NCBI RefSeq assembly: GCF_037975245.1
Contig: NC_092579.1
Span: 18,684,678 to 18,748,677, forward strand
Length of the DNA stretch: 64,000 nt
Reading direction: 5' to 3'
Source of the DNA: Apostichopus japonicus
Lineage: Eukaryota > Echinodermata > Holothuroidea > Aspidochirotida > Stichopodidae
Shown here: piece by piece, positions 3,701 through 55,513 of the stretch
How the letters are laid out: every line of letters begins with the position of its first letter
How positions within the stretch are numbered: the stretch's first letter is position 1
Notes under the pieces: model-generated
The model's database searches: none
The model's input: the letters and a program-made list of their open reading frames with translations, nothing else
What the model was told of the DNA's origin: nothing
Position numbers and translations under genes: made by a program

Positions 3701-6700
3701 AAGAATCACACACGGTTGAAGTTGTTATTTTCGTTAACATTTTCAGGGATTAATCCATTGTGTGGCATTACAGCCAAAACACCAATACCAGAATTTGCAT
3801 AATCTGTTTTATGACTGCAACAGAATGTAATTTAAAAAAATTGAATAGACAGGGTTTAGTTGGCAGTAGGTGATAATGGAAGATTCTTTTTTTTTCCTTG
3901 ACAGGCTGACATTACGGAAGCAAAAAGGATTCCTCGGTTCGGTTAAGCAATCTCTTAGGAAGAATAAACGTAAATAAAGATTCGATCATTTGGTTTTATT
4001 TTTTTTGGGGTGTAAGGTTTTCATACTATAGTGTTCATTGTACCTTTTGTAGTAGATTTACTGTTTCAATAGATACAGTATAGTGTCCCAGTGGATTCAG
4101 TACAATATTCTGCTTTCTAAATATAGTCATGGATGTGTTGGGGGCGGGGTGAGTGGGGTTCTAACCCCCCAATCTTGGCAAAAATATCACTAGAGGAATT
4201 CAGGTGATATCAAATGCCCTTCATCAAAAGAAATACACATAAATGACTTAAGGTTTCAAATACCTTTGTAGTTATTTATGTGTTGTATAATGTATCACAC
4301 AGACATCACACTCCCAAGTTAATTACTGTGTTAAATAAATAACCCTAATTGAAGGTGATACTTGGCTAATATTGCTAACCATAAACACCCAGTTGTTCAT
4401 AAAAGTTGAAGGCAGTATTATAGTACTATAGACATAGAGCAAGAGTGATTGGCAGCTTAATTGCAAGCATTTAGGGCAAGGCTCTTGAAATTGAGGGGCC
4501 TGTACAGGGGGTAGGAGCCGGGGGGCACTGGGGGCACGTGCCCCCCCCACACTTTTTTCCAAAATAGCAAATGTGCCCTCCTGGCAAATAAAATGTGCCC
4601 CTTTGATGAAGAACTGTCTTTTGGATATCTTAAGCCTTTGTTAATTTTAATATGTTATTTTAATTATTTATTTTTAGTCTGTACTGTACATGCTATTTTT
4701 AAGATGGCATCCAATATCTTTTTGTAGCACGGTTAACAATAAATTGTATTGATAGAATACTAACACATCATATATATTTAAGTGATATGGCCGGTGTGTA
4801 TCGGTTTATAGCATAACGAGTGGTGGTTGTGGAATGAGAAAATGCCCCTCTGATGTTGTGCCCCCCCCACTTTTTGGAAGCTTCTTACCCCCTGGGCCTA
4901 AAGCATATGCTACTTTTGCTACTAGGTTAATCCAGCACTTACTGCAACCGGTGCATCACAGCAGGTTAATAAATTATGTTATCAAAGGCGTGGTGCTACA
5001 AGTACTTGCAGGGAAAAACTTGATATGCTACTAAACATTTGTATCATACACTTTATAATACTTTACAAATTTAAATTAACATTTGCATATATTTCATTTC
5101 TCACAGCCAAAAAGAGGAGCATCGACTCCAATTTCCTGTTGGAGTACAAGGGTTTGGTCTCTTACGATCATTCACCAATCCATGTGTCATTAATGCCTCT
5201 AGAACCAGAGGAAAATAATATCGCCAAAGATTGTTTCATCGGTAAGTTTCTTTCTGTCTTTCTGCTCTAAATACCTGAACACCAATTTACATCTTAGGGA
5301 AATGAGACATGTCTGAGATATTCAGTCACTCTTTAAACTATATTTATTTATTTCTACATACCTTAAAAGCATTGAAGACTCGCCCCAAACCCTGTGCGGC
5401 CATCAGAAAAAGTTAACTCTCTGTTGCTTGCAAGTGACGTTTTGTTTGTGTTGCTACAAAATGCAGTACTGAAACGTGATACCTTGTTATCTTTAGCTGG
5501 ACCTGATATGTCCATCGCTGTATCATTTGTATACTGTGCTGTGGGTATTGACCGCAGCTGTATGTACTGACTGTACACTAGTGTCTAATTACCGACGGTA
5601 GCAAGCTGTGTGTGTATTTTCTGGGATCGATGGTGGTGTTTAACACTTCTGTTACACCTCATTCAAAACTAGGTCAGATTACCAGCATTAGACGTTTCTT
5701 TTTGGGCGAGTCTTCACATGTGCACCTTTTATAATTTCCTTTTGTTGTATTCATATTTGTTGATAAATTGAATCCCTGTCAGTTTCCAATTTGTTGATTT
5801 AAAAAACATAATTTACAATGCATGGATGTAGAAAGTATTTGTTTGGGTCAGTATTTTGTGGTACCAGAGCAAATAAGAAGATACTTTCTCAAAATGATTT
5901 CACCTCCGACCATCGCAACAAATTTTCAAGATAAACAGTAAAAAACGATGACTATTTTCAAACACAATAGATGCATCCAAAAATCAGTCTTTTATCTTTT
6001 GGTTATTTGGCTAAAAACAAAATCTTGCATGTTTAGACAAAATAACTATTACAACAGATTAAATACTGAGTAAGTCGGTAAAGTTTCAGACCATACATGA
6101 GCCCCTATGAGGTACATACCACCATAACACATATACCTAGCCTACTTAGGGTTTAGTGATAGGGTCTGTTCCTGTATTTTTTCATTTGTTTTTTTTTTAT
6201 TAACGATTGAAAATAATTACCATTTATTTGGCATGGACTAGCAGCTTGATGGAGTCTGGTAGAAAATGACGTATGATTTTTATAAAGTTTGACTGCTTGG
6301 AATGCGATAATCCCTCTCATAATGATAATTAAAAGCACTCCTCTGGTTTATTTGCTCTGGTATTTGTACGATCGGTGTCTCACACATTTCAATACTGTCA
6401 TGAATTTAATCCACAGCTTTAATGCAGATTATGGGAGATCATCCCTACCAGAAGAGATCAGCCGACGAAGCTACTAGCAAGGCCGTCTATCGTTGCTTCC
6501 AACAGATACTAAAAGTAAGCAAAAACCAAATAAGGAATAGCCCTGGAACTCCATATTATATTTTATTATTACCTTTTATTATAAACTCCATCATGAACTT
6601 TGAAATGAGTCCTTTTATGACAATTGCTCTACAGAGCATTTGCAGTACATTATTAATATAGCATTAAATATGCATTTCTTCAATTTTCCAACTACTCCAA

Positions 6701-8939: not shown

Positions 8940-11900
8940 CTACATATATATATATTTATATCTACATATATATATATATATATATATATATCTTTGATAA
9001 CAGGAAGGCAAACTATTCAAACAGCAGCCATTTTTGATTCCTGAGTCCACGCAGAGGAGCGTTCGAGTGAAGGGCAACACCCTGGTAGAGGAAGCCATCA
9101 GGTCAATCTGCGAGGAGATGAACGTCGTACAGGAGGAGGATGTGAACGAGTTTGGAATCCTTTCTGTCACCGTCAGGAATAAAGGTACGTGGTCAAAATT
9201 AAGCTACTGCTGGCAGTTCTCCTTTTTGTTTTAATTCTTCTGGAATAAGAGGATGTTGTTTTTTTGTAAAGAGTATATTAATCTCAAATCTTCAAAAACA
9301 AGAATATTAATGATACAGAAATGTTATTCTTTATTTTTCATACTGTAAAAAAAAACAACTGCAAACAATGTCATTAACAAACTGTAAAACAAAAAAGTTT
9401 CATCTTGTCAAAATAAATCACGGATAAGCAGAAATAGCATGGGCAAGAAAATTGTAATTAAAAAAAAAGAAACCTCACCCTGTCAAGTTTTAAAAATGTT
9501 TACCTATAAATACAAGCTATGAAGCATGGATAACTAGACTAGAGTATTAAGAACTTGCCAATCTGGTCTTGTTGTTTAAATATGTTTTTGAAACTTCCAT
9601 AGAAAGGTCCTATCCCCCGATGTTTATTATACTAGAGTTGATGTAGCAGATCTCTACCATTGCAGTAGGGGTTAGCTTTTAGGATGGAGTTTTTGTTAGG
9701 GTTGGAAGATTTGATCTGTCTTACATTTCTGGGTGCCCCTGCAATATATATATTCCTTCATCTTCTTGTTGCAGATACTCTTTCCATCTGTTTCCCCCCC
9801 CCCCCTTCTCTACTACTTCGTATCCCCCCCCCTCTCCCATTTTCCTTTCCCAATCTTCCTTCCTTCAACCTGTCTGCATGTGTCGTATCTCACCTAGTAC
9901 GATTACTAGTTTAAGATTTTTGAGAATTCAACGTTTTTACACTCTGAAACTTTTCAGAAACTGAGAGGCAGTTACTGCGTGGTGAGGTCTACATCATGGA
10001 TGCTGTTCCCAGTAAAGGAAGCCACACCCTTGTCTTCCACAGAGTGTCGTGGAGAAGAAAACTCAAAATTGAGAAAGAGATGCTTCTCTCCATGCTCTTC
10101 CACCAGGTATGAAAAAAACTTGTCTAATTCTCAGCGATTCCCATCATGCACAGATGCATCTCTGCTGTGGGTAAATTGGTTGCTAGGGTCACAAATTAAA
10201 CGATACCCAGGTCAATAATATATCCCATCATAGTTCCCATGCCAGGTTAATGAGAAGACCTTGAAAATGCAACAGCAGTGCAAGGACTTAACAAAGACTG
10301 TTGGCTCTCAGATGTAGAGCGGAAAATATCAGCCCCAAAATTTAAGTTCCATTGTAGAGAGCAAAAAGTGGTCAAATTTTCCGACTCGTTTTCAATGCCT
10401 AGTTTATTTTAGCCTTGAGCTCTGGTCATGTTCCTATGTTGCCAGGTAGAATAAGTACAAGCCACAGGTTACTTGAAGTATGAACGACCTGCAGGCAAAA
10501 AATATATAATTACATTTTCTCTTTGACATTATGGGGTATGCCAGGGTTAGCATCTCTTATTTATACTTCCAAAACTTCATGAAAGGGCATTTCCATTCAT
10601 TATTTTGATTAATTATTAAATATAAATTTAAATTTACAAAAGCAGTACAAATATTTTAACTGAACCACAAATATTAGTGGCAAACATTTCATTTGATGAA
10701 ATTTAAGGTAATCAAATCTACCATATACAGGATTGCCCCTCTTTCACGAGACAATAATTTTCAAAAATTATGACAGTTTTTGATCAACTTTTCTTCTTAC
10801 GGCTTAAAGCATTGTACACAACACACACAACCAACACTGAGGGAGTTGCTCTTGTTTCTTTACAGGTAAAACAAGACTACCTTGGGAGTAGACTGATATT
10901 GCTGACAAACGAAGGTATGAACGACACACTGAAAGAGATGATCGCCTACCTCGGTGCTCTGTTACTACGAGTGATGCAACTGAACCAAGTACCGTCAACG
11001 TAAGATATTGAATACTGTGCAAATAAAATGTCTAAGGTATCATGGATTAAAAACACATTGATGAATGAACGGGCAGACGGATGGACGTATGTATGCCCAC
11101 CTAGAGTTTACTTTACCACATTTTTTACCATCGGCCAGATTAATGGCACCCCAACCAACAAAACGGTTCATTATAATCTTTATATTTGTTATGCAACAAA
11201 AATTTGAAGAAATTTCTGGGCAAAAAACGTCAAATTGAAATAGTCAAAGTGAGTCAAACTTTGATCCCATTCTTAATGATGTTTTGTGTTCCCTTCTGTG
11301 ACCTATGACCCCTGACCCCAGCTGTGACCTCTTCTGAAGCATTCTGATAGTACTACTGTAAGTTGTCATTGTAAATGTGTAGCACAATACACTCACGAAG
11401 GTTTTTTTCTTTTCTTTTCATGTATTTGTAGTTTCCAAAGCTACATTCGATTATAACTTGAAAAAAAGTTGAAAATATTTTTAGATGGGTTGAAGATTTT
11501 GTTTTATTATTTCAACCTAACTTTTGGATCAACGCTACAGACAGAATTGTTCGAGTTTTGAGAATTCACATCAGAAGTTGAAGTGTACTTTACCTGTATA
11601 CTGGTTGATTTTCCATTGCTTTTCTCTCGCTCTCTGTTTATACATACAGCAAAGATCTTCCACAATTACTACCAAATATGGTCTCGAAAGACTCGTCGAC
11701 GATCCCTCCCAGCCAAAAATTGGCACCTCAGAAATGGCTCAACCTGATTCAGGAGAAAACGGTGGACGAAATTACTAATTTGAGTCCCAACAGGGCCATG
11801 GTCCACTTCCTACACTTGATGCGAAATGCCAAGCTCTACGGTTCCACGTTCTTCCGGATCAGTTCTTCCTCTCATCAAATGATCGGCTCTGAGGGCGCTA

Positions 11901-13785
11901 TGATGGCCGTCAATAAGATCGGCATCCACTTCATAGATTCCCAGAAACACGTAAGTGGTCAGCCATTTCACAATTGGAACGTGTCGTCCTTACTTCCAGA
12001 TCTCGCCGGAACCTTAGTTATTAAAATAACGTCTAACTACCTGACTGGGCAGATGCAGTGTATTATTTTACTACCACATCTCCAAGATATGGAGTTTATG
12101 TATTATATTAATTTGGACCATACATCGAGAGCTGATGATGGGAAAGTTTACATCTTGCTGTGCGATCAGAGCCGTCCAGATAGTTACTGCATCGCTATTA
12201 AACCCTGTAAGCTTCACCCAGATATTATGTCAAGATCACAGAATATTATCCTGTTGAACCCTGGCAGGTTCGATGAAGGTTTATTCCCTGACTGTTACCG
12301 TCTGTCCGTCCGTTTACTTCATCTCAACGTTTTGTCTTGCCTTCCTCTCCAGGAACTGATATTCTCCTATGACCTTCATGAGGTCATCTCTGCTACGCCG
12401 TTCACAACCTACGAAGGCCAACAGGTTCTCAAGATAAACAGCGGTACTCTTCAGACCATGAAAGGAGAACACTTTGAATTAGAGAAGGTAACATTTACAT
12501 TTCTGGTAGTTCTAATTGAACAAATTTTTAATTCATGATTAATATTTACTATTAGATTGAAGTAGGGAAAGGGCAGGAGGGGAGGGGTTGGTGGGGAGGG
12601 TTAGGAGGGGAGGGATGTGAGGGGAGGGTGGGCAGCCTTCCAACAGAACACGGTATTTATCAGGGGCAATGGGTCCATCTGTCGGGAAGAATACTAGACT
12701 TGTTTCAAATTAACATCAAGCTTATTTGATACCTTATTTTGTCCATCAGAGTCATGATTCAAGCTACCGTTCCCTCCAATGTCCAACTATAAAACTAAAC
12801 TAAGACATGAACTGCATCCTGTCTAGTATTCTAATTGGGGAAACACATACCCAACATCAAACTGCTGTGTAACATGTATGATGGAAACAATTTTATTACC
12901 AGATGCCATCTTGATACCGTCCTATAATTGGCATACAAAAGCATAGCTGACATACACAGGCATTCAAAGGCATTTAATTAAACATACAAAGGCATAATTA
13001 ACATACACAGGTATAGAAAGACATAATTGACATATACAGGCATAACTGACATACAGAGGCATAATTAACATACACACGTATATAAAGGCATCATTGACAT
13101 ACACAGGTATACCAAGGCATAATTGATATACAAAGGATATACACAGGGAATTCTTAACATGCAAAGGCATAATTGGCTTGCTTGGCATTCACATCCATAC
13201 TTGACATACATACCGACTCACAGACATACATCCACACATCCCTACATGATACCACACCAATCAAGATACCAGCCGTCAAAGTCAGTCCGCATTTTTACCT
13301 CACAGACTGAGCAAGCCTCCAAGTTGATTCAGCTGTACTTGGGTGACCTCCACGATCGACCCGAGATACCAGACGGGTACCATCCGAGCATGGAGGAACG
13401 ACGGGCAGTGGTGGAGCAAGTCATCTCCAAACCGCCAGGGAAGAAACACAGTGCTCCTGCTATACCCATCGATGCCATACCCAGCAGCGCTCCACCCAGC
13501 GGAGTCCGTCAACAGGTTCTGTTACCGGAATATGCAACCAGAATCGAGGTGGGGGACGCCAGAGAAGAACAGAGGAGAAATCAGGCCCCTAGTATACCAC
13601 CACTTCAACCCGTCTCTGAAGAGGTTAATCACATACCCCAGCAGCCACCAACTACCAACGGCAGACATGTGGGTAACTATCCAGCCGCAGAGCCAAACGG
13701 GAAGCCCAAAGGGTGGCGAGCACCGCCTCCTCCCTCTAGCAACATATTAGCCAGAGGCCACAATCGTAAAGGAGGTAAATGGTAG
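739..13785 (+). CDS. MYO15A: Unconventional myosin XV-like, 3' part (SH3, MyTH4, FERM, tail)
   Basis: Actin-based motor; this window holds only the C-terminal cargo/tail half, about 812 aa. Coding exons: 739-832, 1358-1517 (or -1526), 1884-1978, 2688-2788, 3905-3969, 5107-5241, 6417-6514, 7338-7420, 8362 (or 8368)-8590, 9004-9184, 9958-10106, 10866-10999, 11650-11950, 12353-12487, 13306-13785. All junctions are GT-AG and the phases chain without a break. Exons 2-3 encode an SH3 domain (ALYDY-like RAIRDYSANE, then DWLYG and GFFPSQLVEPL). Exons 5-9 encode a MyTH4 domain (DCFIALMQIMGDHP, DEIYCHVVKQ, RGWRVLYVLS). Exons 10-14 encode a FERM domain (ICEEMN, FHRVSWRRKL, WLNLIQEKT, FSYDLHEVIS). The SH3-MyTH4-FERM order is that of myosin XV, although myosin VII has a similar tail. 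The last exon adds ~110 residues rich in Pro, Gln and Ser and ends GHNRKGGKW. Head, neck and first MyTH4 lie outside. Family is secure; XV rather than another MyTH4-FERM myosin is an inference from best remembered similarity. Confidence 0.9.
2859..3299. repeat. 140-bp tandem repeat, three copies, in myosin intron
   Basis: Units start near 2859, 2999 and 3139. The first two are almost identical over 140 bp; the third is more diverged and carries a short insertion near its end. The array lies between the exons ending at 2788 and starting at 3905. No coding or splice function is visible. Confidence 0.9.
4505..4894. mobile_element. hAT-type MITE (GC-rich ends), myosin intron
   Basis: About 390 bp with terminal inverted repeats: left CAGGGGGTAGGAGC, right reverse complement CAGGGGGTAAGAAGC. 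The flanks are GGCCTGTA (4497-4504) and GGCCTAAA (4895-4902), an 8-bp duplication with two mismatches. CA-starting TIRs with 8-bp target duplications are typical of the hAT superfamily. Poly-C tracts lie inside both ends. There is no transposase ORF, so it is non-autonomous. Confidence 0.65.
5367..5731. mobile_element. TTAA-flanked MITE, copy 1 (myosin intron)
   Basis: Element of ~360 bp with inverted ends TGAAGACTCGCCC at left and GGGCGAGTCTTCA at right. It shares most of its length with copies at 15503-15851 and 16665-16950. TTAA is present at the left edge (5363-5366). The right edge is degraded by a small insertion and the TTAA there is lost. No ORF of note, so non-autonomous. TTAA targets fit piggyBac- or Kolobok-like elements. 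Confidence 0.8.
8591..8650 (+). repeat. 20-bp tandem triplication at a 5' splice site
   Basis: Three units of exactly 20 bp begin at 8591, 8611 and 8631. The first begins GTGAGATGTC and is the splice donor of the exon ending at 8590. The second and third begin ATGAGATGTC, so they differ from a donor by one base. Confidence 0.95.
8911..8991. repeat. (TA)n microsatellite next to a 3' splice site
   Basis: About 80 bp of TA repeat with a few interruptions ends 12 bases before the acceptor at 9003. It occupies the place normally held by the polypyrimidine tract of the myosin exon starting at 9004. Confidence 0.95.
12930..13180. repeat. Degenerate minisatellite of ~36 bp
   Basis: Imperfect units built on AAGGCATAATTGACATACAC and variants run through the last myosin intron to about 120 bp before the final exon. 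Confidence 0.8.
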
Positions 13786-23872: not shown

Positions 23873-26800
23873 TCATTTTTTCTTGACAGGTAGTTTGGCA
23901 AGTTCCGGCTGAAAAATGGGGGAAAAAAATTATATTAATGTTATACTAATTTTAGTGTGCCAAGTTTCATTTCTTCTTTTTCTTTGTTTTTCATGGCGAG
24001 GGGGAGGGGGAAGCGGAGGGGGGGTAGGGAAGTCCATTATCCTGTATTCTTCAAGTTTTGCATATATTAGCTAGATGGAATAAGGCTTTTTCACCTTGAA
24101 ATCATGGCCCCATAATTGAAGCACCTATAAAAGCTGGCTTTTAGTCTTATATGCTGAAGTACCAAAAAGAGAACTTACTGGGAGAATGGAGAAGGAACAA
24201 GTCAAGTCTTCAGTCACTATCATTATCCCTCCAGCATTGTCAAATTCCCCGCAGTAATTGGGGGCGCTGAAGAGAGTCACTAGTTTACGCTTTTGGAAAA
24301 ACTGGTATCCGTCTTCAACCACCTGAGAGTGAAAGGGAATGTAAAAATGTTACGATGTAGCCCTGCATGGTTGACATACTTTTTCATACTCTTTCACACT
24401 ATTCCAGACACTTTCGATGGTAATATGAGAATGAGGAGGATGGTAGACCGGATTGGGCCGGAGTACAGGAGGGGGAAGGAACCACAGAGGTGACTGGTCA
24501 ACTACTCAAACCACGGTAGGGGGAGAGAGAGTGCAGATGTTGTGAGGAGGCAGGGAAGTCAAGAGTGAAGTCAATACTACAAATTAACTCAGTCTTTCTT
24601 TTGTGTATTACCAGGACATTCTTGTGTAACATTTTGCAATGACATACCATTTTTTTAAATTATATTTCTCATCCTCTTAAGGTGTATAGAATTATTATTG
24701 TCCCCTTCAGGCAGGGCAGGGCCATTTTCTTACCTGGTGAGCTCTCACGATGAGACTGAGATCATTCTGTTTCAGGAAATGTCTGATGACATCGCCTCCG
24801 AATGTATAAGAAACGCCACGGTCATTCTCACCCCAACCAGTGATGTCCTGCAAGGGAAATATAAATGGAAGATTTAGAAACCGAGGCAGAAGAAGGGAGC
24901 AGAGGGGAAGTAAGGTGTCATTGAGGGAGCACATAGGATTGAGAGGCATTGGTGGGGGGGGGGGGGGTTGGCAACATTCTAAAGATAGTCAAAGGAAGCT
25001 GTCAGTCAATGCTTTTACCTGACCAATGGCATCAAATTTTGTCACTACAGGGTATCCAATTTACCTAGATGATAATAGGAAAGGACCAGTCAAGCTACAA
25101 CATGCAGAGACCACTGAGACCAGATTCAAAACTATATATACCATAAATAGCTAGCTTACAACTGAGTTCTGCATACAACAAATTCTGATTTTGTTTCCCC
25201 CTTTACTTTTCATTTTCAGAGTAGAAACTATCCTAAGTTGGTCGCCGACATGAATGGATGATCGCAAAACAACCACATACCAAAGGGTGTGATCATACTA
25301 GCTTAGATGTAATCATCTACAAAAATTATCAGACGATCTTTTGATGAAGAAAGGATGACAGAGACGGCGATGAATACTCACCTCATCTGGGTCAGACCAG
25401 AGCAGATCACAGACCAGTCCATGGTCCGGTATGTCCAGAGGTCGGTTTATGTGACGCAGCTGGTCGATGGAGGACAGGTCCGGGGACAGTCCACCATGCA
25501 TGCATAGGATTGTGCTTTCCACCACAGCCGCTGCAATGACAGGTAAGAGTTCATATAAAAATGGCATATCGTTTTTAATTAGCATTCATGAATGGTTTTT
25601 GGGGATGCCACAGGTCGTTTATCAGAAAAATTTGTGGGTGTGACTCAGATTCTGTTCATATGTTCTACACACAAAGATATATTGAGGGATGTCCAACGAA
25701 CAAGAAAGTTCATTCACAAGCGTTCATGTAAACCTTTCATCGTATGATTGTATACAGTACTACTCTTTTCAATCATGTCCAGGATTTATCCAAATGAAAA
25801 CCAACAACAGGTCTGTTAAACCCACACAACTTTGCCCAGTGAAAGTCTACATTTATTGAAAGTTAATCTAACTTTGCAGAGTGACGCTATAATCTTTCAT
25901 AAGAGTTTCACTAACAAATATGTTGAGAATAAAAAACATATTTTGTAACGATAATTTACCTATCGGCAAAGAATTGAAGGTATCAGTGAAGGTTTTCCAT
26001 AGTTTAATGTTGTACCTCCGTTTGCATTCATCGTAAAAGCCATAAATTCTGTGTGAAAGGAGAAAATCATGTAACAACATCAATGAAAACAGAGAAAGGA
26101 TACTGCGCTAAAAACTGTATGTTTAGAGATCGATGATTACACATATATTATAGTACTGTAAATAACTATGATTACAGTCATGTGTATGCGAATGATTACA
26201 GTACAGTGTAGTAATGATGTAATCATCATCAATGAGTACAGACATTTGTAATGATAATCACTGTGAATCATAAGTATGATTACTGCACATATAATAGTAC
26301 TGTATATAACTGTGACTGTGTTCATATGTGTGTTCATATAAATGTGTTCATACTCATTATACAGCCACTTATAACAATCACACAACCTTGCCTCGTGCTA
26401 AGTATAATCCTGTAATAATATGCAAGCTCTCAAAGTAGGGTGCACTGTAATCATTGGGGTACCGATTAGAGATTTCAGTTACCTTTCCATAACTGAAGAA
26501 ACACTTTTCCATTCCAGATTTTTATGAAACCTTGTCAGTGAATTAAGCCAGCTGAACTTCATAACATAGCCCCTGCTCATGCATATAATTACTATGCTCC
26601 AATGAACACATTCAGTTGACTTTGTTGCTATTAAATTAATGAATCACCACGTACTAATGTTGCCATAGGGGATGTTGCAGTGAAAGAGGCTGCCTGTGTT
26701 CGCAGCATAAATCATCTCGTCACCGAATGTGCTTGAAGGGAAAGTACTTTGTCAGTTTGTCGCATAGATCTCATGGCAGGTTTCTCTTAGTCTATCAAAA

Positions 26801-36300: not shown

Positions 36301-39300
36301 ATGGAGATGAGGGAGAATTTGTTCAAAGAGACGAAACAGGATATGTTATCTATTGAGATTGAAAATCTCTGTTTTGCATACAGCAAATGAAATTAGACAG
36401 TCTGAGGCTTGGACGCAATTAAGTTCAGCAATAGCTTAGAATAGATGATCTTCGTTCCTACTTGCAAATGGATTCTCTTTTCTTTATTATAGCAAACAAA
36501 GGTTGGATTCACATCAAAGCAAGATCTGGTCGCAGCATTGTTCAAGACAGGATCATCGGAAACAAAGAAAGGTTGGGAATGATTACGAGTCCTATTTTTC
36601 TCTTATTAGGAAAAGGAGAGCATAAGAAGGTGGAGGGAGAAGTTAGGTGAGGGGTACAGTAAGTGAGAGGAGGGAGGGGGGAAGTGGGAGAGTTAAGTAT
36701 GACAACACTATTTAAAACTCTTTTCAAAAATGGTCGTTAAGCGATGGGGTGTAAAGAAATCACAACCTAAATGTTATTATGTAAGGGCATTATTATGAAG
36801 ATTCAATGACAATATTGAAATCAACAATGGAAGCCCTCTTTACTTAGCTGTCCTTACACATCAACTGTATTCTAAGTACTGGCTTATTAGTTCAACCATT
36901 TTAGATTTTCTCTTAAAGTTTTAAATTACTTCTAAAAATAATCTGTTGTCTCATTTAGTTACAAACTTTCTTTCCAGAAACACTACTGTATAGAGTGTGT
37001 ATGGAATGTACATAGAAAAGATTTTCAGAGATATTATTTTCATCTTTGTTGCAGAACCAGATGGTGCTAATGATAATTATCCAGGTAAATTCCAAGTTTC
37101 CAATTATTTTTTAAGGTGTTTTGTTGTGTTATTTAAATAGTTTTTAGGTCATTTTGGTAAAAGTTTTGATACTATCCTGCACAAAAAAAATTCAAATCCC
37201 ATATTTGTCATAGCTTACCAAGATTTTCTTCAAAAAGTGTTAAAGTTTTAATAAAAATTGAAAATGTCTTATACACAGTTTTTGTATTTTTCAATTACTC
37301 TCTAGTTAAAATCTTTCAACTACTCTCTAGTTAAAATTCGATTTATAGTGATTTATGGTGATTTATAGTGAAAAATGTTTTAGTTTGATCAGTTATAACC
37401 TTATTTTGAGTAAGGTTTTGGTAAAATTGCCAAAAGCTTGTCAATCAAAGTAAATAAAAACACTGCATTATAATTAGACCTTATCACATTCAAGAGTAGG
37501 TCTATAGTTTGTTATTTTTTAACCATGATGTTTCAACTATTCATCTCATAGGAAGGTCTTCATTCCTTGTTTCTAAAACAAAAATGGTGAGCTTGAACTA
37601 CCCCTTGAGGGATGATGACAATATTGTCTCCACCAACCATACGGATGAAGTATCAGACAATAGCCCATTGTTTGCCCTTGATTGTGAAATGGTATACCTC
37701 TTTGTTTCAGACACTTTACTATGTATGATCGAGCTTCAGTTTAGTCATTATATTTGTTCATGGCACGTTATTTTCACTCCCAAGAAATTCAAGTTTTAGG
37801 ATTGGTTAGTGTCGACCTTCTTGACAAACAAAAGGAACACATTATCTCATATTAGAGACCTCTGGAACCTACGATTAAAAGTCTAAATCAACTTGTTATG
37901 CATTTGTGTTATGTCTTTCAAGCCATGGAATTTTTCTCCCGTATTTTTGATTTGTGGGCTTTAAAGGGCCAATAGTATCTGGTCATTATCAAGAAGTTTG
38001 GGTTCCTCTGGGGCCAAAATAAAGAACAGTTTATTCCCATGGAAAAGTCGGCCCTGGTCCACAATGGATATCTCATCGCTATAATTATTATTGGTCTTCC
38101 CTCTAAAATGAGTAAAGGACGGTAGTTACTAAACAGCTTGGAATACATAAGCAGGCTTCCTTGCACAGTCAGAATCCAGAGTTTTACTACAAATCCAAAG
38201 AGCGCAGAAACTATGGCAAGTACGATTCCAAGGCTGGGTAAAGAAGATAAGTACTTCATCTATAGAAGTGTTCCAAGATGCCTCACGTAAGGATAGACAT
38301 CCACACGAGGTTAATACCCATAATATGTAATAATTGTGCTATAATTACTCAGATACATGTCAATTCCTCCATTTGCTAAATCTTGCCCATGTGTTCATTC
38401 CTACTTGGAGTTGTCATTCAGTCATATCGCAGTATGTATAGCTATCCCTCTGCTTTGGTCTTACTCCTTTATCATTGTTACGTCCATTCCTTGACTTGAG
38501 TGGCGAGGCTGTTGCCTTAGTGTCACAGTTGGGTCACAAGTAGTGGTTAAAAGAGGACGATTTGATGCAAACACAAAGAACAGGCTTGGCTAAGGTTCGG
38601 CCCTGGGGATCTTTTATTGCCAACTTTATATAACAGATCGTCGGTTTCTGTGTCGTCTCTCGGCATCGATTGTTGCCAGGAGCAACAAAAAGGTTGACAA
38701 AATAATAATATATTTAAAAAATAATTAGCTTATTAAAGTTGATAAGCCATAAAGGTATATTTGCACACTGTATGTATTTATTTGTTGATTTTACTTGTTC
38801 TGCTCGTTCTAGTGTCAGACTCAGGAGGGGTTGGAGCTGGCCAAAGTGTGCTTGGTTGAGGAGGACGGTCAGTTGATATACTCAAGACTGGTCAAACCAG
38901 AAAATGAAATCATAAATTATTTGACCGAGTAAGTAGTCTCCAAGAACCCTCCTTATACATCAAGTGATTAGTTTATATGAATCACGCGATGGTCTGCATA
39001 CTGTGGAGCGTGTGAATCTTTTTCGCTGGGGCACAGAAACTTCTTAGACGTTGGAAACTTTATCTACAGTTTTGGAGCTTACTTAAGAACATCAACAACG
39101 TCTTTATGATCTCAGTTCCATAGTCCAAGCCAGCTGTCATGCATTCTGATGTTTGATTCTGAACCGAGGGTGGGGGGGGGGGGCCACTTGGAAGTCACTG
39201 GGTTGTAGGCCTAAAAAAAATTGACTGCTGTCATAATTTGTTTAATCATATATTGTTATCATTTATGATGCCTTATTCATTTCTATCATTTCACTACATG

Positions 39301-42300
39301 CATACTAATTGTCTGTCTTGTTTATTATTGCTGTTGGTGATGCTGTTTGTTTGTTGATGTTGTTGTTTTCTTGGGGGGTTTTCTCTTTTTTTTCTAACCT
39401 AGTTCATCCATCTGTACCAAATACCCCTAAATTGTACTACTAATTTATTGATAAACCCCCAGAGACCTATTCTCAGTATGTTCAAGTTGTGGACAAGAGG
39501 GTTAAAAGAGCTAATCTGTGGCACAGTGTTTAATTCTCTCATTATAGTGTCACAATTTGCATAGAAATTGTACTTGTCAGTCATAACAGATGCATTTCAA
39601 TATTGACTTTCTCCTCTTTAAAAACCACCAGGTACAGTGGCATGACAGCTGAAACTTTACAGGAGGTAAACACGAGACTACGAGATGTCCAAGAGGAGAT
39701 TATTCAGCTTCTACCACCTGACGCAATCCTGGTTGGACAATCCATCGAAAATGACCTCAGAGCTTTGAAGGTAAATATTGTATGATACTGTAATGTAAAA
39801 ACCCAAAGTATTGTAAATTAAATTATTGGTAATCTGAATACCGGCTAACCTAAAGCCCACACAGACTTGTTGACAAATGGTGCTGTCAACTTTTTCGGAT
39901 CAGGTTGTATTAATGCACAGAACTGTCTGTCACCAAAAGAATATAAACTTGATATCATAGTTTACGTTTATTTTGTTGCAGTAGGGTTAAAAGAGGTACG
40001 TTATTCCTCAAGAAAGTCTAATATTTTCTTACATGAAAGGAACAGGACAAACATTGGTATTATAATAAACTGGTATGAAGGCGAACGATCAACTAACTGC
40101 ACTCGTCATAGGGAACAGAGCACGATTTACCTTTGTTAGTCCTGTTAGAAGAGAAATATGATAAAACAATTTAGTAATTGAGTTTCAACCAGCTGCTCGA
40201 CCCAGAATGGATATTTCTTGTGTTATGTGAATAGTTGACTTTATAGTTATTTTTTTATAGTATTTTCCTCTTTTTCTTTTAGAAATTCAACCATTCAGAC
40301 CCATACATTTAGTCTAGCTGCTCAGGGGTTATTATTCTTTTATGGTATTTTAGGAATATTATGTACAATTCTCTTTTCTCTAAAATAGTGAGCTTATTTT
40401 TAACTTTGTTTTTGATTTCTTTCTTTACAGATGTTCCACCCCTTTTGTGTTGATACAAGTGATATGTTTACAAGGAGTGGCCATCGAGTAGGATTAGCTA
40501 ATCTGACACAGTTTTATCTTAGGTAAGCAAACTACCAGGGGCAACCCAAACAGTGGTCATTAAAAGTTGTCAGTAGGACACAGGATATTACCAGCTGCCA
40601 GAACCATTTCTACAGTTTTCAGAGCTTGCCGTTAGAGATCGATTCAGTTTGGTTTCTAACATCAAGTTGATAGTCTGGCTTTCTTGCATTCAGAGCATCA
40701 AGTTAGGGTGTGTGGGAGGGGTCAGGTGGGTCTGGGAGGGGTCTGGTGGGTGGTGGCCCTGTCCTCGTGGAAGTTCCTGGGTCACAGGCCTAAAAGGTTG
40801 CGGACCACTGGTTTACAGTAGTCCTCTCTGTGCAGTCTACTCTACAGGAAATTCCAAAGGTCATGGAGTATACTATTTATCATGAGCTTCACATGAATTT
40901 TTTTTCAATATAACTTCCACTACAAGTGAACTTCCACTACAAGTGAAAATTGGCCATGAATGAATTAACACCATATATTTTCATGCTCTCAGTCCCTGCT
41001 ATGGGATGTTGCAATAGACATGAATTAATTTTTATAATTTCAGTATTTTCTGAGGCATTTCTGTGTTATTACATCTTTTAGAATTTCTCTTCCTATTCTA
41101 GTCGGGAGATTCAGTCGGGGGACCAAGGTCATGACCCCACTGAAGATGCGAGAGCTGCCCTTGATCTGTTCAAGTTACGACTCGCGGAGGGAACCAAGTT
41201 ACCGAATTACAAACGAAGGAAAGGTTCTCAGCAGCCGGAGAGAATATCTGTTGATTCAAGGTGAGGTATTATTCCTTTACAATGACAAGCACAAATACTG
41301 TCTACTGGCAGCCTGCTCCATTTATATTTCCCATTGACTATTTTACACTTAATTGTCAAAGAAACGAAAGTAAGCCCGGGTAGAAGTTCTCACCAGGTAA
41401 TAGCTACCGCCTCTCTAGGCATGTAGTGTATTGGCAAATTTATGGCACCCTCAATCTCCTGTACCATGACTATGTAAATTTTTAGCAATGAGAGCCCAGA
41501 GATTTGCTCACTCACCCATAACCGCATATTCCTGTGCTGCCCTTTGATGGTCTGAAGTGTACGAAACTTGTCCAAACATGTCTCTAAATGTTCACACCAT
41601 ATGCACATCCATTTGTGTACTTCAACAGCCAATACTATCGTACAATGTGTAATGTAGTAACGTAGAAAGATGTTCTCCTGTTACGTTTTTTAGACACTTG
41701 GGCAGGTTGATATAAACAGCCTATGGATTATGCCAACCTGCAGGACTGGTCCAATTTATTCTAGGTAACTCAAATGTGAATTAGACTTTCAGTTTGTTAC
41801 ATTCGAGAAAGTAAATAATTTCAATTTCTTGCCCACCTTCTTTTTTTTTTTTTTAATGCTGATGCCTCCAGGGGTATCATCGCAAGAGGTTAATAACTGA
41901 ACAACAGTCATGTTATTGTTATTCGTTTGTTGTTGTTATCTGCATTTAATACTGTTCTCTCAAAGCATCTCACGTTCTCCTCTTTTAATCTGATCTCGCT
42001 CTCTCAAGATCTTTATATTCTGGTTTCACAGCCTCCTAGCAGGATGCGAAGACCAACGTAAGACCTGTGCGATTGTGGATGTCAGGAAAGTAATACGCCA
42101 GTTTGAAGCCAACGCTGCCGATATCCTAGAGTGCATCAACGATTCGGAGGTATAATTTATCTATGATTTATTGTTGTTGTTTTTATATAGAAGAGTCGGT
42201 GCGTAATTCTCCAAAATAGAATTCTCATTTTTTTTTTATCTGTGACTAACATTTTAGTAGCATTGCTATTGAAAAAATTATCAATACTAAAAGTTATCTG

Positions 42301-50461: not shown

Positions 50462-53400
50462 ATGAACCGACACTCGCGGGTCCTTCCTTTCCCTCAAGGG
50501 AAGGGCAAAGAGAAGGACAAGTCATCGCATAATGCATCGGGGAGTAAACCTCATCTTAGCGGTAGCAGCATCGCTAGTTCATCACGAGGAGTAGCGAAAT
50601 CTGGCATTAAAAGTGTGAAGGGACTAGTGAATAGCCTCTCAGTCGTTGCAAAAGCAAACCATAGCAGCAGTAAGGAGAAACATGGAGGAGGAGGTCAAAC
50701 CTGTGCCCCTAGCATCAGTGCAGCAGTTGCAGCTGCAAGTGCAGTGCCTAACAGGCCACAAAATAAGGTAGAACCTTCAGACGAGACCGTACCAGCCACA
50801 ATCGAAGCCAAAAATGTCAAGCCCGTCGCATCCAGTGCACCCGAACAACAGGACTGCGATAACGACAAAATTTCAAACCCGAAAGCTACGTCGGACTCGG
50901 CTGACGGAGGTGTACCTATAACTGACATTAAGAGTTTGGAGAATTTACAAATCACTCAAGATGAATTGCCAGACGATGAACCGTCGTCAGAACCAAGGCC
51001 AGTCGGCCAGAGTGAAGCAGAGAGCAGCAGTCCGGAGAGCAGCAGTCCGGAGAGCAGCAGTCCGGAGAGCAACACTCCAGAGAGCAGCACCCCAGAGGAA
51101 GATTGCACCACCACTGCTGCGGCCAAGGACGAAGTTGAGCAATGCAAGGAAATCGTCTGCGGTTGTCCCAAAGATAAAGAGAATTGTGAATGTTCCTCAT
51201 CAGGAAAGGATTTGCAGAAAGATCTGCCGTCTTCGTACCTCGCGGTAGTCGGGAAACAAAAAGTGCACGAGTCCGTGCGGGAAACTTTTAAACTGAGATT
51301 GCTCTGTCCAGAAGATGTCCCAGAAGTAAAGGCATTATGTGGAGATTGGTTTCCTGTAGAGTACGTCGGTCTCTTTGTTATTTTCTTTCTTTTTAATTTT
51401 CTTCTTTCTTCCTTTTTAAGAAAAAAATACCATCCCTTCGCAGACAAATGAGTGGTTGTATGATTTCCCTTAATAAAACAGATTTACAGAATTTATAGTT
51501 TCTCATTCATGAGGAATGACTCTCTAAGTAACAGTAGATAAATTACAGCCATTCAAATGTCAAATATTCCAAGAACACCATCTCTTTGGCTGAGAAACTT
51601 GCCAACTGTTTGTTTTCATGGGACCTGCAACCTGTATTTACCAATAAAGGTTCTTAAAGCTGCTTTTTAAATTTTTTTTACCGAGCACTGGTCACCTAAT
51701 TGCCCCGTCTGTTAATGTTGCTCTTGTCTCCAGGTATCCTGACTCATGGTATCACGATATTACCAGCGATAGCAGGTTTCATTCACTCGCTGCTGTAATA
51801 AACAACGAGATAGTAGGACTGTTGGTCTCCGAGGTCAAAGCCAGGGCACGACTCCACAGAGAGGTAAAGAAGAAGTTTTCAACATGAGACAGTACCACAG
51901 AAGGGTCTACTTCATCACTCTTAATGACTTCTTGACATAATTCACATTCTTGCTATTCAAACATGATTTTATTTTATGACCATATAAACAGAAATTTACT
52001 TTTGGATGCCAGCATATAGCAAGCAGCATCTTGGTTCGCCTCAAACTGGGGCAGTCAACAAAGACTCCTGCTGGCATCAATCTATTGATTATTAGTATTT
52101 TATTATTCTGTTAATGTAATTCACTCCCTCTACGGAATTATTATAGTGAAAATGTTTTTTGTTTTTGTTTTTTAGGATTCAACAATACTTTCATCAGCCT
52201 TCCCATCCATTACTCAGGTGGCATATATTTTGAGCTTGGGTGTGGTCTCTACTTTCAGACGACTAGGAATTGGTGAGTTGATGATTGTGAAAGACAAAAT
52301 ATGCAAATATATAGTTACTGAAACTGTCACCAATTTGTAACATATTTGTGTAAACTTCATTAGAATGTTTATTCGTACATATGCACATACACACACTATG
52401 AGTGAAGTGTGAACTTTGATCTCAAAAGATGATCAGTGTTCTGTTGCAGTACAGTTTTGTTACTATTAGCATGTGCAATAAGCAGCAGTTTTATACTAAC
52501 TATGCTCATAAATTGCTGACAATAACGACAGTCTAGCAGGTTTTTATCAAAGAAGTCTAAACACATGTTCACCAGCCATAAAAGTCATACAAAAATACAT
52601 ACTGACTTTTTCCAAGTCTAAAGGGTAAGTTAAGACATCACATTGACCAGGTAAGAAGATACTTTGTGGAAGAGTACTTCCGTTTGAGGGAAAATGTTGC
52701 TTTGCTAACTCAACAAAAGGTCCCCCAAGCTCGGTACAGTACTGACTTCTTATTTGTGGAGTTATCCATGGCATTTAAATCATTCCGTTTGAAGAAAAAC
52801 CAAAGTTTCCCATTTCTCATTCCAGCCACCGCACTCCTGACCAACCTGCTCAACTATTTGAATACTCACGATAAACTCAACATCAAGGCCGTCTATCTAC
52901 ACGTGTTGGCATCAAACACCAACGCAATTAGTTTTTATGAAAAGCACAGTTTTCGTCGCCACGAGTACTTGCCTTATTACTATGCTATACGTGGCAAGGG
53001 AAAAGACGGATTATCTTATGTCTTATACGTCAATGGAGGCCAGCCACCTTGGACCTTGCTATATCCTTTCCAATGTATATGTCTTACTTTTCAACTAAGG
53101 TGGGATGTAATGATTAATGGGTTTTGCTCGTACCCTTGCCTATGGGGTTAACACAAGGCCCTGTATTACTGAATGGATAAACAAAATATATTTGGATTTC
53201 ACTTGATAGCACCTTTTGTTAATAACTAGTATAAACATGGAAATCAAATATGTTTTGAGCATGTCATAGATATTAGTATTTTAGAGCTGCCAACATAGAT
53301 GAAAATTGGTTAAATTCTAAGGGAATGTGGTCATGCCAATTCAGTTTTGGATGATCAGCTGAATTGGCATGACCACATTGATTATTTGGTAAGACGGATC

Positions 53401-55513
53401 AATCCAAGACTCTATTGCTTGCGGAAATTGAACACCTTCAACATCAGTAGAAACATTCTTTCTATTTTCTACAATGCTGTGATTTTCAGTGTGTGGTCAT
53501 ATTGCATTAATTGTTGGGGAGGTAATGTCAATGGTACAGACAGAAAACGGATAGATTCTATTATAAGCCAAGTCAGTCGCATCCTAGGCAAACGTCAGCA
53601 ATCAGTGAACACCTCATATCATCTTCACCTTCAAAGTAAACTTGCTGGGGTTCTCAACAACAGTAGCCACCCTCTACACGTTAATTTGGAAAGTGCAATA
53701 ATACCCCGCAGTGGGTGGATGAGACTACCCCGTGCAGTTACGAATCGTTACAAATCCTCCTTTATCCCTCGTTGTTTTAAACTTCATATTGTATCTTTTA
53801 CTCATTAGGTCAGTAATCTTGCTCATTGTGCAATCCAATGTTTCACAAGTATCTCTGGTGCTGTTTTACTGTATTTTGTATTTTACCGTTTTTACGTATC
53901 TTGCCAGCTTTGTTTTAAGTCTTATGTCTTAGTATTTGAGAGTCTGATATATTTTGTGTGTATTTTATGTACTGTACGTATGTTTTATATTGTGAGCAAT
54001 CAATTGCCCAGCTTGGGATGCAATAAAGAGAATCTGAATCTGAAAGGGAATCCAGTGGTCAAAACCTACAGATTTTGATTCTTTGTGTAACGGGGACAAC
54101 AAGAATGACACCTGGTTGAATCACTTGTTCACGGCAAGCCTCACATATGTTTTATGGTATGCAGGACAAATTTTTAGGGGTCATTCGAGAGGGCCAAATT
54201 TCTGTCGGGAAGACCGAAATCAGCATTGGAGGTCGTCCGGTGGATGACCAGTTGTCTACCTTTAACTCAGATTACATTTTTACTAAAAACTCTCAAATAG
54301 GTAAAATGATAAGTTAGTGTCACCCTCCATCACATTGGAGATACTTAAATAAAATAAAATTATGGGTGGACCTATTATCCTTCTGAAGGGGAGTATTTAC
54401 GGCCAAGATCTTCTATTCACCCAACCTACACATCTCTCCTGCAGTGTTCATATTGCTGTTCTATTCACTCAACCTACTCATCTCTCCTGCAGTGTTTATA
54501 CTGCTGATCTATTCACTCAACCTACGCACCTCTCCTGCAGTGTTCATATTGCTGTTCTATTCACTCAACCTACACATCTCTCCTGCAGTGTTCATATTGC
54601 TGTTCTATTCACTCAACCAACACATCTCTCCTGCTTAATGCTGGCTTATAATGTGTTTGGTCAGTGCCATTCTTTTCCTCTGTTCTTAATTTTCTTTCTT
54701 TTGCGCAGTTGTTCAGCCGTCCAGTAGACAGGCTGCTTTCTAAAGCCTTGGTGGTTGTGTTATGTTAGGTAACAATTGAAATTTCAAAACAAAAACTGGT
54801 ATAAAAAAAATCATCCAAAAACTACTTTACAAAAAATGGACATTTCAAACATCTAACACAGTGCCTGAGATTCACAGGAGGAAGATAGAAGTTACAAGGA
54901 AAAGCAAAGAAAGGGGAATGCTGCTGGATGGGTTGCATTATTCTAGGCAAACCTCTCATTCTTCTCCTCAATTAACGTCATATATGTCACGTACGAATGT
55001 CAAATATCTTTACATCATTTTTTTAATTCAATGCTAGACAATTTTTTTGTATCCCGACTATTCAATCTTCCTTGACTCCCGAGCACAGATTATATGAAGT
55101 TGGTCGGTGCTTACATTTCACGTATGCAACCCTCCAGCCTACCATCCGCTATGGCCAACAGGACCCGTAATTTCATCGCCAGCCGACGTAGCTGGTTTCC
55201 GAGCCTACCAAGCTTTCCCAGCATGCCGAGCATGCCCAACGTCAACTTACCGAGCATGAATATGAACATTCTGCAGCGTTTCAGAGGTCAGCAAGGTCAA
55301 GGGTCGTCACACGACCCCGAGGTCGGTCTTTCACCCGAGGAAGTGGCAGCCCTGGAGAGCGAAGACCCCGACGAGTTGGGACCGGGGAGAAACCGCAGTT
55401 GGTTGCCGAGTGTCAAGTATTACAACTTGCTCCAGAGGTTTGGCGGCCAATGTTACGACAGCGGAGAACCGTCTGAATTTGAGGATATCGAGTCCGGCCC
55501 ACCGAGACTATAA
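50462..55513 (+). CDS. NAA60: N-alpha-acetyltransferase 60 (NatF)
   Basis: GNAT-family enzyme that acetylates N-termini of transmembrane proteins from the cytosolic face of the Golgi. Coding exons 50462-51360, 51734-51863, 52176-52272, 52826-53060, 55087-55513; predicted 595 aa, against 242 in human. The first coding exon probably starts at 50406 after a good acceptor (CCCGTTTTATAG). An in-frame TAA at 50435 precedes the ATG. Residues 1-270 are low-complexity Ser/Pro/Glu/Lys with five SSPES-like repeats. The catalytic domain starts near 273 (LRLLCPEDVPEVKALCGDWF). It has YPDSWY, QVAYILSLGVV (Y360), the acetyl-CoA motif RRLGIA (371-376), AVYLHVLASN (H401), SFYEKHSF, YLPYYYAIRG and NGGQPPWTLLDY. 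The Tyr and His correspond to the catalytic pair of human NAA60. The C-terminal MKLVGAYISRM and NFIASRRSWFPSLPSF regions may be the membrane-binding amphipathic helices; an acidic tail follows. The last intron is AT-AC. Confidence 0.96.
51018..51095 (+). repeat. NAA60: Coding 15-bp repeat in NAA60 exon 1
   Basis: Five copies of GAGAGCAGCAGTCCG or variants encode ESSSP repeats, the last ones drifting to ESNTP and ESSTP. In frame and without stops. Confidence 0.95.
53324..53379. repeat. Perfect 21-bp inverted repeat
   Basis: AATGTGGTCATGCCAATTC(AG) at 53324-53344 is repeated inverted at 53359-53379 with a 14-base loop. It sits at the left edge of the LINE fragment in the AT-AC intron. Confidence 0.95.
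53345..54042 (+). mobile_element. Non-LTR retrotransposon, 5'-truncated 3' end
   Basis: An open frame of ~150 codons (53347-53808) gives the tail of a LINE reverse transcriptase: LNWHDHIDYLVRRINPRLYCLRKL, ILSIFYNAVIFSVWSYCINCWGG, DRKRIDSIISQVSRILG. After a 3' UTR it ends CAATAAAGAGAATCTGAATC, a polyadenylation-like signal plus short TCTGAA repeat usual for CR1/L2-type elements. The intact frame suggests fairly recent insertion. It sits in sense orientation in the AT-AC intron of NAA60. Confidence 0.85.
54411..54638 (+). repeat. 48-bp tandem repeat with acceptor-like units
   Basis: Nearly five units of 48 bp. The first four contain TCTCTCCTGCAGTGTT, with CAG ending at 54444, 54492, 54540 and 54588; the fifth changes to CCTGCTTAATG. 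As 48 is a multiple of three, one frame stays open across the array, but no protein is recognised. Confidence 0.92.

Follow-up and report, generated by a model that had tools for sequence, protein, structure and literature searches.

The last of four introns in the NAA60 gene of the holothuroid Apostichopus japonicus is almost certainly, on sequence and homology, an ancient U12-type AT-AC intron of animal NAA60, orthologous to the AT-AC intron of Drosophila CG18177 and human NAA60. The intron spans positions 53061-55086 on the forward (+) strand of the window (the whole 64,000-nucleotide stretch analysed here, positions 18,684,678 to 18,748,677 of contig NC_092579.1, numbered from its first letter), is 2,026 nucleotides long and interrupts the reading frame in phase 2. 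The upstream exon ends in ...TTGCT and the intron opens with the 5' splice site ATATCCTTTC (53061-53070, +), for which the U12-type consensus is ATATCCTT (PMC2831892). Its tail, CTTCCTTGACTCCCGAGCAC (...GAGCAC), closes on an AC terminus at 55085-55086 (+), and the downstream exon starts with AGATTATATG. The branch word TTCCTTGAC occupies 55068-55076 (+; consensus TCCTTAAC, PMC2831892) and places the branch A at 55075, 11 nucleotides from the last intron base, the C at 55086 (10 nucleotides if counted from the C of TTCCTTGAC). Joined at 53060/55087, the flanking exons read NGGQPPWTLLDYMKLVG, which aligns without a gap to NGGHPPWTILDYIQHLG in the NAA60 chain 5hgz_A. A first-pass annotation of this DNA, made from the letters alone, had proposed an AT-AC intron with these bounds, a branch word 11 nucleotides from the AC terminus and a join restoring PPWTLLDY; the donor, branch word and AC end were recovered to the base, and the spacing and the join held as well.

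To place the intron in a splicing class, we compared it with published descriptions of U12-type introns, which are defined by their 5' splice site and branch sequence, show an optimal branch-to-3' distance of 11-13 nucleotides, are described as having no distinct polypyrimidine tract and disfavour mixed termini such as AT-AG (PMC3584512). The donor carries the extended 5' splice site RTATCCTT, the branch word is close to TCCTTRAY and the spacing of 11 nucleotides falls inside the optimum, while in TCCCGAGCAC, the segment from the branch to the intron end, no pyrimidine tract is apparent by eye, although the lack of one is not borne out by a pyrimidine count (given below). Introns of the U12 type are reported to be biased against phase 0 (PMC7367187), and the phase 2 position of this intron is consistent with that. 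The U preceding the donor does not count as support, because the bias for U at this position is reported, in the relevant passage of PMC7367187, for GT-AG and not for AT-AC U12-type introns. Median lengths of minor and major introns correlate across species, and the minor intron median reaches 4,019 bp in one fly species (PMC10639083), so that long minor introns are not unusual. The assignment to the minor spliceosome made in the first-pass annotation is thus supported by the 5' splice site, the branch sequence, their spacing and the published NAA60 minor intron.

The surrounding gene model consists of five coding exons, all on the forward strand, that form an open frame of 595 residues; of the four introns separating them, the AT-AC intron is the last. 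Exon 1 (50462-51360), delimited by its open frame and in-frame join, encodes a long Ser/Pro-rich N-terminal extension and the start of the acetyltransferase domain, matches 5hgz_A from CGDWFP onwards and has an uncertain predicted start codon. Exons 2 (51734-51863) and 3 (52176-52272) have GT-AG flanks, are in frame and align to NAA60; exon 4 (52826-53060) ends in GGQPPWTLL- and includes the final part of the PF00583 domain match; and the last coding exon (55087-55513) runs from DYMKLVG... to the stop, its start corresponding to the human Golgi-binding helices (residues 190-224; PMC10937998). A search of a 229-residue stretch of the product against PDB returned 23 matches, the top five being N-alpha-acetyltransferase 60 chains and the best 5hgz_A (E 1.7e-70, 198 residues aligned without a gap), and Pfam identified an acetyltransferase (GNAT) domain (PF00583, E 6.8e-14). 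We take the 5hgz N-alpha-acetyltransferase 60 chains to be human. Fittingly, PMC4993997 reports structures of human NAA60.

The three remaining NAA60 introns are all GT-AG and all shorter (373, 312 and 553 nucleotides). The earlier statement that every other accepted junction in the window is GT-AG therefore stands for NAA60 (3/3), whereas for the phosphatase-like and exonuclease-like genes described below it rests on junctions viewed by eye, the whole covering a subset of the junctions in the window. In the model, the start codon is only predicted, and so is the long N-terminal extension: the predicted Ser/Pro-rich segment at 50462-51250 would add about 263 residues beyond the human protein, exceeding the whole of the 242-residue human NAA60, and a 15-bp tandem repeat within it (51018-51097) codes for ESSSP units. 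Viral contigs were also searched for relatives of NAA60, with three pattern matches, none of them a relative, and an Rfam scan of the window gave no match at gathering thresholds.

The choice of splice sites was assessed by scoring against human NAA60 the products of 468 candidate pairs (GT-AG, GC-AG, AT-AC and AT-AG) whose donors lie in 52990-53159 and whose acceptors lie in 54900-55139. The AT-AC pair 53061/55086 ranked first, with a score of 287. Second came the GC-AG pair 53058/55083 (score 280, 595 residues), whose product reads WTFTDY, and the AT-AG pairs 53063/55088 (278, LLYYMK) and 53061/55083 (276, 596 residues, PPWTLLTDY) also scored below the AT-AC pair. The best GT-AG pair, 53081/55088, reached 257 with a 601-residue product carrying intron-derived residues, and 53075/55088, also GT-AG and in frame, reached 254 with 599 residues. 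The GT-AG, GC-AG and AT-AG alternatives were rejected after this scoring.

Several observations nevertheless weigh against the assignment. The AT-AC pair leads the GC-AG pair by a modest 7 score points, so that much of the weight falls on the exact U12-type motifs and on the conservation reported in the literature. In comparison with 100 dinucleotide shuffles of the whole window, counted on both strands, ATATCCTTT occurs 4 times against 1.25 expected, and TTCCTTRAY 4 times against 3.98; RTATCCTT donor words number 9 on both strands, with 5.7 expected. A set combining a donor, a branch word and, 10-14 nucleotides from the branch A, an AC, all within 10 kb, is found once in the real window; of 300 shuffled windows, 24 also showed such a set. 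U12-type motifs are thus weak evidence when taken alone; their strength as evidence lies in falling exactly at the coding join defined by homology. The pyrimidine fraction before the acceptor, counted over 23 nucleotides, is 0.70, versus 0.74, 0.78 and 0.74 for the three introns with GT-AG ends, and the lack of a polypyrimidine tract is therefore not demonstrated by a simple count. That the intron shares its codon with its fly and human counterparts is presumed, with indirect support from the preceding intron, and we infer transcription of the intron, and its splicing by the minor route, from the DNA.

The frequency of the motif combination in shuffled windows, together with the three frame-keeping alternatives (GT-AG 53081/55088 and 53075/55088, and GC-AG 53058/55083), would be compatible with removal of the intron by the major spliceosome through one of these nearby pairs, the U12-like words being there by chance. 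We consider this very improbable, since the GT-AG products gain intron-derived residues and drop the conserved LDY, the GC-AG pair has a donor, GCTATA, that is poor by consensus and yields WTFTDY, and the literature already records an AT-AC minor intron in NAA60. Even less credence attaches to a variant in which the 5' splice site is as described and the 3' end is the upstream AG at 55082-55083, giving AT-AG termini and an extra Thr, or in which both ends are used. That AG is in frame and its 596-residue product scores 276, but it lies only 8 nucleotides from the branch A, short of the 11-13 nucleotide optimum, and would give the intron mixed AT-AG ends, a disfavoured combination (PMC3584512). 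The PDB NAA60 chain, moreover, has no extra residue at the join.

The orthology of this AT-AC intron with those of other animals relies on gene, subtype and rank. NAT15 is, we assume, an older name of NAA60 for the same gene. In Table 1 of PMC2952598 the human orthologue of CG18177 is NAT15, and both names occur in PMC9769039, PMC4993997, PMC4692089 and PMC10399710. In Table 2 (row 13) of PMC2831892, a study that compared intron positions by protein alignment and counts just nineteen U12-type introns in flies, CG18177 and human FLJ14154 are listed with an AT-AC intron, intron 4 of 4, that is U12-type in both. NAA60 is described as a minor-intron gene in both human and fly: knockdown of the minor spliceosome component RNPC3 leads to alternative splicing of human NAA60, among the affected minor-intron genes (PMC12332006), and Naa60 is one of eight minor-intron genes with lowered protein in miso-null fly ovaries (PMC12084885). 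The window gene is the same gene by its match to 5hgz_A, and its intron has the same AT-AC subtype and the same rank, 4 of 4.

For the preceding intron, positions could also be compared at the level of codons. In human NAA60 this is intron 5, in which the change c.338-1 affects Gly113 (PMC10937998), placing human intron 5 in phase 1 of codon 113; intron 3 of the window gene is in phase 1 of codon 376, which the ungapped alignment pairs with human codon 113, indicating that intron architecture is shared there. Residue numbers in 5hgz_A exceed those of the protein by one, as a check on Gly113 and His131 showed, and this offset puts the AT-AC intron in the codon matching human residue 191 (Leu191). 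The AT-AC U12-type intron of fly and human NAA60 has been catalogued before, and the window case is already known in kind and in gene.

Following the steps established for the U12-type class, the 5' splice site would base-pair with U11 and the branch sequence with U12, U4atac/U6atac.U5 would join next to complete the spliceosome, and the intron would leave with its A-C termini, joining LL to DY.

In human NAA60, the GNAT domain covers residues 13-182 and two Golgi-binding helices lie within residues 190-224 (PMC10937998), so that an intron at the residue-191 codon separates the catalytic domain from the anchor. Residues 190-202 of the human protein form an amphipathic helix, and a form comprising residues 1-199 is more active in vitro than the full-length protein (PMC4993997). 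Read-through past the donor in the window gene extends 454 residues by 29 intron codons before a stop at 53149-53151; failed or regulated minor splicing would hence be expected either to give an acetyltransferase without its membrane anchor or to remove the transcript. The location of the intron at this boundary may bear on whether minor splicing controls where NAA60 acts. A stronger proposition, that the minor intron acts as a switch, conserved over deep evolutionary time, between the anchored and the free form of the enzyme and that this is one reason for the persistence of the AT-AC intron even in flies, strikes us as quite unlikely. A fly study considers it most likely that unspliced U12-type transcripts stay in the nucleus, where they may be degraded (PMC2952598); this argues against translation of a shortened NAA60. 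Separately, the U12-type pair is overlapped by two GT-AG pairs that are in frame (53075/55088 and 53081/55088) and could yield a near-normal protein if minor splicing fails; the overlap is probably due to chance.

The first-pass annotation had also described a tandem array and an insertion of a long interspersed nuclear element (LINE) in the intron. The array was confirmed at 54411-54634 (+), with 4.7 copies of a 48-bp unit. The insertion is likely a LINE fragment: the insert at 53327-54043 (+) contains most of a frame (53314-53805) whose only Pfam match, PF09004 (E 9.1e-4, 19.2 bits), is under the curated cut-off of 21, and the remainder of the case is a presumed resemblance of the frame to the C-terminal region of LINE reverse transcriptases. 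The edges of the insert were set by eye from the 8-bp repeat AAGGGAAT, which flanks it at 53319-53326 and 54044-54051 as a target-site duplication would; this repeat was itself picked by eye and has a third copy at 24333. No further copy of the LINE-like insert was found within the window. At the 5' edge of the insert lies a perfect 21-nucleotide inverted repeat (53324-53344/53359-53379, with a 14-nucleotide loop), predicted to form a strong RNA hairpin (53324-53379, z -8.0), an arrangement such as a reversed back-copy of the insert's first bases during insertion would leave. In the array, each of the four full 48-bp units contains CTCTCCTGCAG, which we take to resemble the U2-type 3' splice site consensus, and the minor intron may therefore hold a row of possible major-class acceptors.

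Elsewhere in the window, exons of a PP1-like phosphatase were recognized at 24707-26048 on the reverse (-) strand, two of them matching PF00149 and the one at 26048 seen by eye only, with junctions that are GT-AG by eye. Upstream of NAA60, a set of exons at 37580-40523, likewise with GT-AG junctions by eye, resembles an RNA exonuclease. At 1295-1579 and 11609-12535 there are matches to SH3 and, under its cut-off, to a FERM domain, which perhaps belong to one unconventional myosin-like gene. Two further candidate U12-type signals were discarded by eye: an RTATCCTT word at 26103 (-), which lies upstream of a phosphatase-like exon with visible GT-AG junctions, and a branch-like word at 3894, which has its next AG too close. 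A second minor intron was not established in the window, where the genes were modelled in part only.

Together, these results present a clean example of a minor intron that appears strongly kept across animals despite the presence of a LINE-like element and a tandem array within it. Annotation programs restricted to GT-AG introns would probably mis-model NAA60 here, which makes the locus a useful check case. The closest known counterpart is the intron of Drosophila CG18177 (Naa60) and human FLJ14154/NAT15/NAA60, which lies in the same gene and belongs to the same AT-AC subtype. The rank is also alike, the window intron being 4 of 4 between coding exons and the tabulated one 4 of 4 in a count whose species is unstated, presumably the fly; the window intron differs in coming from another animal and in its span of 2,026 nucleotides, which includes a LINE-like insert as well as a 48-bp array. 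U12-type GT-AG introns use the same spliceosome and branch sequence as the AT-AC ones and differ from the window intron, which has A-C ends, in their termini. U2-type AT-AC introns, as found in sodium channel genes, share the AT-AC termini but carry a G at position +5 (PMC2831892), whereas position +5 of the window intron is a C, within ATATCC.

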